In this document: one piece after another, positions 855 through 44,070 of the stretch
Numbering within the stretch: position 1 is the stretch's first letter
Layout of the letters: each line of letters starts with the position of its first letter
DNA from: Candidatus Kaiserbacteria bacterium RIFCSPHIGHO2_02_FULL_49_34
GTDB lineage: Bacteria; Patescibacteriota; Minisyncoccia; Phycocordibacterales; UBA918
Assembly: GCA_001781205.1 (NCBI GenBank)
Contig: MFLE01000009.1
Span: 1 to 48,533 of the forward strand
Length of the DNA: 48,533 nt
Reading direction: 5' to 3'
Notes under the pieces: model-generated
Told to the model about the DNA's origin: nothing
Databases searched by the model: none
The model's input: only the letters and a program-made list of their open reading frames with translations
Translations under genes and position numbers: made by a program

Positions 855-878
855 TGTCTGCGATACATTATAATATCT

Positions 879-1061
879 GTCATCCTCGGAATGTAGAAAG
901 TAAACGTAGCGGAGCGTAGTATTGCTCTCACATATCCGGGGATCCAGGCGTTCGAGCAGTTTTTTCATCATGGATCCCCGGGTCATTTGAAAACATAGTC
1001 GTTATGGTTCGACAGGCTCACCATAAATCGCTCCTTGTTTTCATGATGCCCGAGGATGACA
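879..1061. repeat. Family-1 cloverleaf element (copy 1a)
   Basis: TGTCATCCTCGG...CCGAGGATGACA terminal inverted repeat, central CCGGGGATCCA...TGGATCCCCGG hairpin. Confidence 0.85.
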
Positions 1062-8999: not shown

Positions 9000-9029
9000 A
9001 AACACATGCCAAAGGCATGTGTTTTTTCT
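9000..9029 (+). terminator. Terminator after nrdA
   Basis: aaaaacacatgccaaaggcatgtgttttttc. Confidence 0.85.
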
Positions 9030-9031
9030 GA

Positions 9032-9120
9032 CGCTTTGCTTCCTTCTGTTCTTGTTCGGTCATATCCAAATCTTCGCTAACGCTGCGGCTTGGCTACGAC
9101 GCTCACTCGTTTGAAAGATA
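9032..9120 (-). repeat. Family-3 ~85-bp repeat (copy C)
   Basis: Reverse complement atctttcaaacgagtgagcgtcgtagccaagccgcagcgttagcgaagatttggatatgaccgaacaagaacagaaggaagcaaagcg matches copies near 13.6, 39.1 and 43.7 kb. Confidence 0.8.
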
Positions 9121-13403: not shown

Positions 13404-13428
13404 TTTCTGCAACCAAACCCAATGAATT

Positions 13429-13674
13429 GTCATCCTCGTGATTTAGAAAACAAACGACCTTTGGGAGTATTGTTTTCAAATACACGGGGACCCATGGCTT
13501 TACTGGTATCCTTTTAATCCATGGGTCCCCGGATACTTTGAAAGTATAGTCGCTATCGCTTCTTACTTTCATGATGCTCCGCTTCTTTCTTCTCTCGTTC
13601 TCAAATGAAAATCTCCGCTTACGCTTCGACTTCCACTTGCTCACTCGCTTGAAAGATAAGTTCCGAGGATGACA
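13429..13674. repeat. Family-1 cloverleaf element (copy 1b), interrupted by family-3 repeat D
   Basis: TGTCATCCTCG...CGAGGATGACA ends; GGGGACCCATGG/CCATGGGTCCCC central hairpin; GAAAACAA/TTGTTTTC arm. Confidence 0.82.
13577..13660 (-). repeat. Family-3 repeat (copy D), nested in copy 1b
   Basis: Reverse complement cttatctttcaagcgagtgagcaagtggaagtcgaagcgtaagcggagattttcatttgagaacgagagaagaaagaagcggag. Confidence 0.75.
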
Positions 13675-25083: not shown

Positions 25084-25245
25084 TGTCATCCTCGGGATTT
25101 AGGAAACAAATGAGCGAGAGCGAATATTGTTTCCAAATACCCGGGGATCCAAGGCTGGAGAACATTGCTCGTCAGCCTGGATCCCCGGGTATTCAAAAGT
25201 AATACTCGCTATCGCTCGTTTACTTTCAGAATCCCGAGGATAACA
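25084..25245. repeat. Family-1 cloverleaf element (copy 1c, most complete)
   Basis: TGTCATCCTCGGGAT/ATCCCGAGGATAACA closing stem with GGAAACAA/TTGTTTCC, ATACCCGGGGATCCA/TGGATCCCCGGGTAT and AAAGTAA/TTACTTT arms. Confidence 0.9.
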
Positions 25246-29462: not shown

Positions 29463-29628
29463 TGTCATCCTCGGGCGCTATGAAAGCAAGGAGTGGTAGC
29501 GACTATACTTTCAAGTGAACCGGGGATCCATGGATTATAAGGCTTGCTCGCTATCCATGGATCCCCAGTTCTAGAAAGCAATATTCGGACAGGCGTCCTC
29601 ATTTGCTTTCTTAATCCCGAGGATGACA
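29463..29628. repeat. Family-1 cloverleaf element (copy 1d)
   Basis: TGTCATCCTCGGG/CCCGAGGATGACA; TGAAAG/CTTTCA; CCGGGGATCCATGGAT/ATCCATGGATCCCC; AGAAAGCAA/TTGCTTTCT. Confidence 0.9.
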
Positions 29629-36889: not shown

Positions 36890-39031
36890 ATGCATACTCA
36901 TATCTTACAATTTCGCACACGCTATGCCGCTGCACTCGGTGCACTGCTCGCACTCGCACTTCTTGGGGTGATGGTGTTTCTCCTTACTTCGCTTGTAACG
37001 CCATCTCGTGCGGCTGTTCTTACAGAGGACGCGCGACACGAGCTCGTGTTTTATGAACTCTCGCCGCTCGGTGAAGCTGGCGGCTACATGATGCCGGCAT
37101 CATGTCCGTCTGGCTATGTTGAGTCTGGACCGCATGCATGGAGACAAACTGGTAGCCAAGTAATCGGATGGGGTAGACGTCAAACAACAAGAATCACCGA
37201 AACATACAGCGCTCCGTGTACTGCCGCAGCGGCACCAACGCTCAGTCTCACGGCAAATCCATCAAGCATAAGCTACAACAGTGCATCAACACTTAGCTGG
37301 TCATCAGCAAATGCCACGAGCTGTACCGCATCAAACGGTTGGTCAGGTGGTAAGGCTCTCAGCGGCTCGCAGTCAACAGGGGCACTTACTTCTAGTCGTA
37401 GTTATACACTCTCATGTACGGGTGCAGGAGGAACAGTTACGCGTTCGGTTACGGTATATGTCGCAGCGGCACCAGCAATGACCTCTATAAATGCAACATG
37501 TAGCGCCGATGGCAATACAGTCAGTGCAAACTGGTCAGCAACAAATGCAACCTCATACAATCTCCGTGTGGATAATCAATCGAATCCATGGAAGGGGGCA
37601 TGTAATGTTGCTCAGTATCCTGGCGACGTCTGTGCTGATGGATATGGTAGCACCTCTTGGAGTGCCGGTGGAGCACAAGGAAACACATACAATGTATGGG
37701 TTCATGCATGTGTTGCGGGATACTGTAGTTCACCAATAAGTAGGCAAGTAACCTGTACACCTCCAACGCCAACCCTTACTTTCACAGGAAATCCAACATC
37801 AGTTACATATAATACCGCATCAACACTCAGCTGGTCATCAACAAACGTCACCAGTTGTACTGCATCAGGTGCATGGTCAGGCAGCAAAGCAGTCTCTGGC
37901 AGTCAATCAACAGGTGCTCTTACTACAACACCAAATACCTACACCCTCACCTGTACTGGCCCTGGCGGTTCTATTACACGGAATGTTACTATCACTATTC
38001 CTGCGCCAACACTCAGCTTCACGGGAAATCCAACATCAATAAGTAACGGTGGCGCATCGACACTCACGTGGTCAACAGCAAATGCCACCAGTTGTACTGC
38101 GTCAGGTGCGTGGTCAGGAAGCAAAGCTGTCTCGGGTAGTCAATCAACAGGTGCCATTACTACAACACCAAATACCTACACCCTCACCTGTACTGGCCCC
38201 GGTGGTTCCATCACAAGGGATGTAACGGTGACTATCCCCGCACCAACACTCACTATCAAAGCGAATCCAACAGTTGTTGGGTATGGCGGTGCATCAACTG
38301 TTACTTGGTCAACCACAAACGCAACCGCATGTACTGCATCAGGTGACTGGACCGGAAACAAAGCAGTTTCTGGCAGTCAGACTATGAGCAATATTATCAA
38401 GACGCCAAACACCTATTCAATGACCTGTACTGGTCCAGGTGGATCAGTGACAAGAATTGCCAATGCAACTACTGGAGGTACAAGTGGCACGAGTGTCACT
38501 ATCCCTGCACCAACGGCAACCTTGCAGGTCCGTGTGAATGGCGGTGCTTGGACAACTGCTGCGCAAACCATTGAACCAACCGATACAATCAATCTTCAAT
38601 GGGGTTCAACAAATGCAAGCACCTGTAATGCCGGTGGATTTACCGCAGGCACAACCTCAGGAATCGCAACTGCTGTCGATGAGCCTGCGCCAGGCACGAC
38701 AAAAACCTATACGGTTCAATGTCCTGGTGCTACGGGCACATCACCCGCAAATGCTTCGGTGGATGTCACTACACGCAGTCGCTTACCGACGCTCACCTCA
38801 AGTAGCCTTATTGTCACCTCTGGTTCAACCGCAACCCTCACCTACGATCTTAATAGCAATCCATCGTGTACCTTTGACACTACTGATACGACACTGAACA
38901 ATGTTGTCGTGAGCACGAATGGTGCAAAGTCAACAGGGCAAATAACGAAGCAAACCGTCTACACACTCGAGTGTCCAGGCGGCAATGCAACAATTATTAT
39001 TAATATCGAAGGAGATATCCGAGAGCAATAG
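36890..39031 (+). CDS. Secreted protein with tandem Cys-paired Ig-like repeats
   Basis: Repeats of form PTLxFTGNPTSxxxxxASTLSWSSxNxTSCTASGAWSGSKAVSGSQSTGAxTTTPNTYTLTCTGPGGSITRxVTxTIPAP. Confidence 0.8.
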   Translation: MHTHILQFRTRYAAALGALLALALLGVMVFLLTSLVTPSRAAVLTEDARHELVFYELSPLGEAGGYMMPASCPSGYVESGPHAWRQTGSQVIGWGRRQTTRITETYSAPCTAAAAPTLSLTANPSSISYNSASTLSWSSANATSCTASNGWSGGKALSGSQSTGALTSSRSYTLSCTGAGGTVTRSVTVYVAAAPAMTSINATCSADGNTVSANWSATNATSYNLRVDNQSNPWKGACNVAQYPGDVCADGYGSTSWSAGGAQGNTYNVWVHACVAGYCSSPISRQVTCTPPTPTLTFTGNPTSVTYNTASTLSWSSTNVTSCTASGAWSGSKAVSGSQSTGALTTTPNTYTLTCTGPGGSITRNVTITIPAPTLSFTGNPTSISNGGASTLTWSTANATSCTASGAWSGSKAVSGSQSTGAITTTPNTYTLTCTGPGGSITRDVTVTIPAPTLTIKANPTVVGYGGASTVTWSTTNATACTASGDWTGNKAVSGSQTMSNIIKTPNTYSMTCTGPGGSVTRIANATTGGTSGTSVTIPAPTATLQVRVNGGAWTTAAQTIEPTDTINLQWGSTNASTCNAGGFTAGTTSGIATAVDEPAPGTTKTYTVQCPGATGTSPANASVDVTTRSRLPTLTSSSLIVTSGSTATLTYDLNSNPSCTFDTTDTTLNNVVVSTNGAKSTGQITKQTVYTLECPGGNATIIINIEGDIREQ
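37231..38520 (+). repeat. Tandem ~235-bp coding repeats within the Ig-like protein, with one interruption
   Basis: Repeat starts near 37231, 37764, 38000 and 38238; units 2 and 3 share long near-identical DNA. Confidence 0.8.
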
Positions 39032-39070: not shown

Positions 39071-39083
39071 AAAGGAAATCAGC

Positions 39084-39172
39084 TATCTTTCAAACGAGTG
39101 AGAGTTGTAGCCAGGCCGAAGTGTTAACGAAGGTTTGGATATAACCGAGCGAGAGTAGAAAGAAGCGAAGCA
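39084..39172 (+). repeat. Family-3 repeat (copy A)
   Basis: atctttcaaacgagtgagagttgtagccaggccgaagtgttaacgaaggtttggatataaccgagcgagagtagaaagaagcgaagc. Confidence 0.8.
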
Positions 39173-39613
39173 TTACTCGGCAACATGTGCACAGGCGATG
39201 ATTGTTTTTTCGAGTGTTGTCAGCACCGACGTGCGTGCTGAAGGGGAAATGTCAGCAAGTGTTATTTTAAGTCCTTTGGCAAGCGTCTGCTCTGCATCTT
39301 TACATAGTTTCGTGCCCTTAAGGGTGAGTGTGATATGGTGCTCGCGACGGCTGTCAGTGTGGATACTGCTCTTAATAAGCTTCGAAGCCTCCAGGTTTTT
39401 CAAATGGCGTGACATTGCGGGATGTGATACAGCAAGAAGATGTGCAAGTACGGTTGGCATGGTGGTGCCGCTCGCAATATGGCGCAAAATTCTGTATTGT
39501 GTAAAGGTAATGGTGATGCCTGCTGCACGCAGAATAGTATTCGCTTCGGCATCAATAAATACCGCCGCGCGGAGTAGGGTATCAGGGTAGCTGAGGGAAA
39601 ACTTTGATTCCAT
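39173..39613 (-). CDS. MarR-family transcriptional regulator
   Basis: ITFTQYRILRHIASGTTMPTVLAHLLAVSHPAMSRHLKNLEASKLIKSSIHTDSRREHHITLTLKG winged-helix. Confidence 0.88.
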   Translation of the reverse strand: MESKFSLSYPDTLLRAAVFIDAEANTILRAAGITITFTQYRILRHIASGTTMPTVLAHLLAVSHPAMSRHLKNLEASKLIKSSIHTDSRREHHITLTLKGTKLCKDAEQTLAKGLKITLADISPSARTSVLTTLEKTIIACAHVAE

Positions 39614-40107: not shown

Positions 40108-40382
40108 TATCGCTTTAACCACCCATCCAAACGCCTGCTGTGTACGTTACTTTTGTCATTCTGTAAGAATCCAGAGTCGGCACATTATACATGATTCTAA
40201 AGCGTTCGTGCTTTTAAGCACATCGCTCTACCTATCGGTTGTGGCTACATTGAGCATGCCGTTTCGACGCTGGATTCTTCCAGGATGACAAAATGAGGGA
40301 ACAGTTCTCAAAATTAGATACTAGTTAAAATCAATTTTAAAATCTTTACTAAAATTTCCCCAACTAATGCTATACTGCGCAT

Positions 40383-43655: not shown

Positions 43656-43867
43656 CTTCTTCCAAAATAAGCGAATTTGCACTGGTTTCAGAAATTTTTG
43701 ACTCATCTTTCAAGCAAGTGAGCGTCGTAGCTGAGTCGAAGCGTAAGCGGAGATTCAGATATGACCGAACGAGCGAAGAAAGAAGCGGAGCGTCACAAGT
43801 ACATTGGGTACGGCTCCTGCAAAAATATCTTCCAACCAGCACAACTTCATCTCATTTTGAAAGAAGT
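43656..43867. repeat. Family-2 nested palindrome (copy 3), interrupted by family-3 repeat B
   Basis: CTTCTTCCAAAAT/ATTTTGAAAGAAG outer arm; CACTGGTT/AACCAGCAC inner arm; core GGTACGGCTCC. Confidence 0.75.
43704..43792 (+). repeat. Family-3 repeat (copy B), nested in family-2 copy 3
   Basis: atctttcaagcaagtgagcgtcgtagctgagtcgaagcgtaagcggagattcagatatgaccgaacgagcgaagaaagaagcggagc. Confidence 0.8.
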
Positions 43868-43914
43868 CTTTGTTTTACTCTGCGTGGTATTGTAAGCATA
43901 CAATACAAACATCT

Positions 43915-43985
43915 GTCATCCCCGGGTATTTGAAAGCAATAGTCGGACAGGCGTCCTTCTTTGCTTTCAAGACCACGAGGATGAC
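43915..43985. repeat. Family-1 element, reduced copy 1e
   Basis: TGTCATCCCCG...CGAGGATGACA ends with one GAAAGCAA/TTGCTTTC arm; central GGATCC hairpin missing. Confidence 0.75.
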
Positions 43986-44070
43986 AAAATATTTTTGGTT
44001 ACCAGAGATTAATGAGCTCGCGCCCTTGGATTTTGCATTCTCTGCAGAGGTGTGGTAGTATCTGGGAACT

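Follow-up and report, generated by a model that had tools for sequence, protein, structure and literature searches.

A dispersed head-to-head REP doublet with a second, covarying hairpin in each unit: a probable variant of the CGTC-tagged REPs in a Candidatus Kaiserbacteria-like genome

What kind of element is the inverted repeat at positions 25084-25245 of the window (the whole 48,533-nucleotide stretch of DNA that was analysed), and what do the paired changes in its arms say about the way in which it is maintained? A sequence-only reading had described it as a four-way cloverleaf under selection for structure, MITE-like or otherwise, and possibly mobilised by a transposase that recognises its ends. 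We have followed the element through the genome that contains the window, a Candidatus Kaiserbacteria-like assembly of 828 kb in 26 contigs that is 97.7% complete, and through those of its relatives.

Anatomy and conserved fold of the element

The three hairpins and inverted ends first reported for this element all exist, as does the same layout at 879-1061, 13429-13674 and 29463-29628; the sequences were confirmed at 25084-25245, 878-1061, 13428-13674 and 29463-29628, with two of the starts shifted by one base (878 and 13428). BLAST of the whole window genome returned 32 pieces, spread over about 18 places, the best non-self match having E = 3e-33. A scan with a covariance model had been suggested; carried out with model R1, it gave about 34 unit matches in the window genome, with E-values, which are rough owing to a shortened calibration, down to 6e-21, and 49 unit matches in a sister genome, the one relative covered that belongs to the same genus, whose valyl-tRNA synthetase gene has 83% DNA identity to that of the window genome. 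Among the 100 relatives covered, this sister was the only genome with comparable unit numbers, and nearly all of the long units considered below come from the two genomes.

When 24 full copies were split, the halves proved to be one unit in inverted orientation, with the tags outward. The unit is 66-72 nt long in most copies and is laid out as TGTC-ATCCTCGG-variable part-CCGGGGAT-CCA, a REP hairpin whose loop holds a second hairpin. The linker between units measures 24-27 nt; it is related in the 24 doublets and similar in nearly all copies. At 25084-25245, the left unit (25084..25151, plus strand; R1 score 89.9 bits) consists of the TGTC tag, an outer stem ATCCTCGGG/CCCGGGGAT, an inner hairpin GGAAACAA..TTGTTTCC and the CCA tail; the conserved linker delimited by the unit split (AGGCTGGAGAACATTGCTCGTCAGCC, 25152..25177) and an inverted right unit of the same architecture (25178..25245, minus strand; 81.5 bits) follow. 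The second doublet comprises a left unit at 878..946 (plus strand; 77.2 bits) and a right unit at 971..1061 (minus strand; 67.9 bits) with an enlarged tip hairpin, and the fourth comprises units at 29463..29530 (plus strand; 80.2 bits) and 29558..29628 (minus strand; 64.6 bits). In the third, the left unit (13428..13494, plus strand; 77.6 bits) carries the outer-stem variant CGTG/CACG, and the right unit (13522..13674, minus strand), delimited by sequence and by the unit split and found by R1 as a partial match of 29.9 bits, is interrupted at 13573-13655 by an unrelated 83-nt family-2 repeat with AT on both sides, which accounts for the greater length of this copy. Doublets outnumber single units among the covariance-model matches. 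A lone long unit with TGTCATCC at both ends lies at 43914..43986 (minus strand; 51.3 bits), and an inverted pair of short CGTC-type REPs at 40151..40293 (inverted repeat I18) has its tags outward (TGTCATTCTGTAAGAATCCAG / TGTCATCCTGGAAGAATCCAG) and is devoid of an inner hairpin.

Other repeats share this genomic space. The second repeat family (CTTTCAARCGAGTGAGC...GAAGAAAGAAGCGKAGCRTC) occurs in the window at 13573-13655, 9026-9119, 39083-39176 and 43705-43798. It is nested in long REP units at two places, the first of these four and the element at L006 1339-1593, whose left unit holds it, and the AT that borders it on both sides in each place suggests its target and boundaries. In the sister species, one long REP unit is nested in the tip of a second (L016 3958-4167). 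In the window, 237-nt direct repeats occur at 37232-38472 within a predicted coding region (713-aa ORF).

Alignment of 37 units yielded a single interrupted hairpin of 22 pairs, in which 97.3% of the cells are paired. Both sides have changed in 13 of the 22 pairs (138 cells vs 38 in shuffles), and the covariation score was 0.470, compared with 0.142 in shuffled alignments (0/500) and no more than 0.097 with the partner strand slid, so the earlier observation that the arms differ between copies yet stay paired holds well. Some of the change has been stepwise, near-identical units showing A-T, G.T and G-C at one and the same pair. Other features of the unit hardly vary: a T.G pair is nearly fixed (45/50 units), as are the positions of single unpaired (bulged) A residues. 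Since the remaining mismatches on the tag strand are divided about equally between G.T (12) and A.C (9), strand specificity rests mainly on the T.G pair together with the tag and tail.

In the cloverleaf model, the outer ends of the doublet pair together and the inner ends pair together. Because this model and that of two separate hairpins have the conserved core and the innermost hairpins in common, the variable positions alone decide between them. At columns 12, 14, 15 and 16, pairing within the unit holds in 192/200 cells, as against 62/100 for outer with outer ends and 59/100 for inner with inner ends; moreover, all of the CGTG units (4/4) have CACG in their own unit, and their partner units do not match. 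The conserved fold that covariation favours is therefore one hairpin per unit, with a linker between the two. On the column test we reject the cloverleaf in that role, and the closing stem originally proposed is unsupported beyond the shared core. Energy alone was not used to choose the fold, because, with RNA and DNA parameters alike, two hairpins are a less stable shape for the whole single-stranded doublet than a rod or cloverleaf (mean with RNA parameters, -84 kcal/mol for the best fold, -66 for the cloverleaf and -54 for two hairpins plus linker).

The very low predicted folding energies of the full doublet would be expected of a structured RNA, that is, an mRNA 3' end, a processing or stability hairpin or a riboregulator, retained for its effect on gene expression and adopting a rod or cloverleaf shape once transcribed. 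An action of REPs at the ends of mRNAs is on record (PMC3733652), and most copies are located between genes or a short way behind them, in gaps that are often 10-50 nt, with same-strand neighbours in 12/18 cases. Nevertheless, we consider this explanation quite improbable: covariation backs the single units over a full-length fold, the sites differ between the window genome and the sister species, and a search of the window at Rfam gathering scores gave 0 matches. In addition, the tag, the T.G pair and the tail follow the orientation of the unit and not the direction of transcription, so that in a transcript one unit of every doublet always has the A.C form.

Relationship to the CGTC-tagged REPs

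The reading that we prefer, with a probability of roughly 0.7, is that of two CGTC-tagged REP units joined head to head into a REPIN/BIME-like doublet, the loop of each unit being enlarged by a second hairpin. The CGTC-tagged REPs, which are widespread and include dRS3 of Neisseria and RPE-4 and RPE-6 of Rickettsia (Di Nocera, De Gregorio and Rocco 2013, PMC3733652), have a published stem of 8-9 bp, a loop of 4-5 nt and a total length of 20-40 bp (PMC3733652). In our 37 units, G2 and T3 of the tag are invariant (37/37 each), C4 is present in 35/37 and the first base is T in 28/37 and A in 7/37; the first stem pair is A-T in 34/37 and the second T-A in 37/37; and the three bases of the unpaired CCA tail are found in 37/37, 35/37 and 37/37. 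The unpaired CGTC/TGTC tag, the succession of A-T and T-A pairs, the outer stem, whose 8 bp fall within the published range, and the CCA tail are all shared with the CGTC-tagged REPs, as are an extragenic location, a predominance of head-to-head doublets with the tags outside, conserved linkers and, for the two transposase families searched, the lack of an associated transposase. The long units differ in that a long covarying inner hairpin replaces the loop of 4-5 nt, in that they extend to 66-72 nt instead of 20-40, so that neither the published loop nor the published total is matched, and in that their host is a Patescibacterium. Because the loop holds a further hairpin and the units reach such a length, the element is a variant rather than a plain member of this class. 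The class itself is known; what is unusual is the length, which comes from a second, evolving hairpin in each half. A partial literature search found no report of REPs or MITEs in Patescibacteria.

Shorter forms of the same frame occur nearby. In G051, a genome from another family of the same order, the REP frame has a 4-nt loop (TGTCATCCTCGGGTAATCCCGGGGATCCA) and also forms head-to-head doublets. Short 21-nt CGTC REPs number 25 in the window genome and 53 in the sister (0 with a reversed-pattern control); many of them are paired tail to tail over about 126 nt, and arrays that mix short and long units exist (L190; C25:33000-33400). One such tail-to-tail pair, 126 nt long and almost perfectly palindromic, has CTGGATCCCGTCAGGATGACAAAA as its inverted ends (L186-L189, e.g. 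G000:C14:65006-65131) and is present in many copies in both genomes.

Like REPINs (Bertels and Rainey 2011, PMC3116915; PMC8266576), the element is a dispersed inverted REP doublet that shows compensatory changes in its arms and keeps an irregular stem. Unlike REPINs, it resides in a genome without a RAYT, its tag is TGTC and not GTAG/GTGG, and its unit fold is much longer. The flanks of 31 ends share the consensus CCCAAAKAWY before the tag, which may belong to the target or to the element. In 30/31 of them the tag is directly preceded by C or T, which, in view of the strand-specific binding of single-stranded DNA and its cleavage at a CT beside the hairpin in REPINs, is suggestive only. With BIMEs the element shares REP units of alternating orientation, conserved linkers and the mosaic of unit types, short plus long, from which BIMEs take their name; we know of no sequence kinship between its linkers or units and those of Escherichia coli BIMEs. 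Integron attC sites, too, are folded single-strand sites with constant ends, a variable middle and extrahelical bases, a resemblance that we take to be analogy only, the long-unit element having no R/L box sequences, integrase gene array or gene cassettes.

Sites in the sister species and the origin of the paired changes

An examination of empty sites in close relatives had also been suggested. A search of the sister genome with the flanks of 18 copies left 11 comparable sites, whose alignments in AT-rich gaps are uncertain at the base level. Five sites share the long-unit element (C14:27305, C3:14783, C23:24294, C25:7681 and C17:13300, the last cut by a contig end), one is empty and five carry a different REP pair, the sister having a tail-to-tail short pair (the 126-nt palindrome) instead of the long element; the copies are therefore not all ancestral. 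The empty site corresponds to window 29463-29628, and its junction is not clean. The doublet at 25084-25245 lies in the valS-rodA gap, where the sister has a short REP pair.

Dispersal, intergenic location and presence/absence differences between close relatives bear out part of the earlier reading, whereas the transposase with matching ends was not found among the families searched. Were it a classic MITE, the doublet would have arisen by deletion from a DNA transposon whose terminal inverted repeats read TGTCATCCTCGG, and a DDE transposase would move it. Its inverted ends, length of 160-170 nt, high copy number, intergenic location and polymorphism would all be compatible with such an origin, and the window genome contains a second palindromic element, of 126 nt with 24-nt inverted ends. 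This origin is nonetheless highly improbable, given that the inner ends of the units are structured like the outer ends, that single units also occur, that a target duplication was not seen at the compared sites and flanks (none by eye, and no exact one, in the flanks of 31 ends) and that DDE_Tnp_1, the family searched, is absent from both genomes.

The shared sites of the REP doublet bear on the origin of its paired changes. For 7/8 orthologous inner hairpins, the two copies were no closer than pairs drawn at random from both genomes (mean identity 0.68). The element at C3:14783 has kept its boundaries and linker in both species, whereas one of its inner hairpins is wholly different. Hairpins have thus been exchanged as blocks between copies, and the covariation is not readable as selection alone. 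With whole hairpins swapped between orthologous copies, many paired changes are single events, as would follow if the changes were mutational, template switching in hairpins (quasipalindrome correction) and gene conversion between copies keeping the arms complementary. This explanation, which is compatible with a REP doublet, strikes us as unlikely: correction would erase irregular pairs, yet the T.G pair, the GTC tag, the CCA tail and the bulged A are retained, and the G.T intermediates in nearly identical units are those that stepwise change predicts. The strong structure and the paired arm changes of the earlier reading are borne out; part of the apparent covariation stems from the wholesale exchange of hairpins and not from stepwise compensation alone.

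Candidate mobilisers, the inner hairpin and a possible mechanism

The suggested transposase with matching ends did not emerge from our searches, which covered two transposase families. Y1_Tnp (RAYT-type) gave no match at E<=0.001 in the window genome or the sister (97.7% and 95% complete), and DDE_Tnp_1 gave none in either; both genomes are MAGs, from which mobile genes may be missing. Each genome has a single tyrosine recombinase, which is probably Xer. The absence of Y1_Tnp and DDE_Tnp_1 agrees with the 2013 description of CGTC REPs, in which no transposase was assigned to them (PMC3733652). When the surroundings of 23 Y1 loci of relatives were inspected, within about 1.5 kb, for TGTCATCC-like words and strong hairpins, none was flanked by TGTCATCC REPs and other hairpins were present at the flanks; a RAYT of relatives bounded by the long-unit REP was accordingly rejected as the mobiliser (0/23). 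In a comparison across 100 relatives, the two REP-rich genomes are without Y1, and most Y1-bearing genomes are without such REPs. Viral contigs gave no match to one exact linker-region pattern, which is a weak test. As a separate observation, the Y1 genes of relatives are bounded by inverted hairpins of their own (TIRYT-like), of a family that differs from genome to genome (L122, L128, L131, L135, L136).

Many of the model matches in other genomes consist of the inner hairpin only, without REP ends, in the pattern stem, N-GA, small loop, GA-N', TAT, stem. In an alignment of 20 such outside copies with 14 from long units, 96.0% of the cells were paired, a percentage biased upward because the model that retrieved the outside copies already includes the inner hairpin; the covariation score of the same 34-copy alignment was 0.597, compared with 0.155 in shuffles. 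A model of the inner hairpin alone also gave matches in other orders of the class, G185 having five copies. The hairpin AAAAAATAATGAGCG..CGAATATATTTTTT, with a covarying stem and a fixed GA/GA tip, stands alone in several orders of the class (L154-L165), and the five copies in G185 are near-identical (L158, L166, L169, L172, L174). Our interpretation is that a hairpin family in its own right sits nested within the loop of the REP; alternatively, the hairpin tips may be convergent.

How might a REP doublet of this kind move? REPINs of Pseudomonas show compensatory changes and excise as doublets, an activity ascribed to the action of RAYT transposases on single-stranded substrates (PMC3116915); TnpA-REP requires the tag as well as irregularities in the stem, and only one of the two strands is its substrate (PMC8266576). 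By analogy, each long unit may serve as a strand-asymmetric hairpin, its GTC tag and CCA tail left unpaired on either side of an ATCC.../...GGAT stem that holds the nearly fixed T.G pair, and would fold on the tag-bearing strand during replication or other exposure of single strands. A trans-acting enzyme could then recognise the tag and irregular stem of the folded unit strand-specifically, cut near the feet of the hairpin, and move or copy the doublet. The outer frame would remain constant because such an enzyme reads it, and the inner hairpin would need only to remain a hairpin, so that its letters could drift in pairs and whole hairpins could be swapped between copies. To the observed anatomy, covariation, dispersal, polymorphism and block exchange of the doublets, this scheme adds a single-stranded DNA substrate, an enzyme and a cut position, all of which we infer. 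It is also conceivable, if unlikely, that the REP frame is a landing or exchange site for hairpin cassettes, at which an activity that is neither Y1 nor DDE_Tnp_1 inserts and swaps whole inner hairpins, the same activity also placing these hairpins at other positions in further genomes of the class; if true, this cassette-swapping activity would be the missing mobiliser of the CGTC REPs.

The block exchange seen here is a warning that covariation in mobile hairpins can come from such exchange as well as from selection. The long units also separate the parts of a REP that are fixed, namely the tag, the irregular stem and the tail, from those that need only pair. Finally, two close and compact genomes (about 0.8 Mb) that differ in their sites and hold few candidate recombinases make for a narrower search for the mobiliser of these elements.
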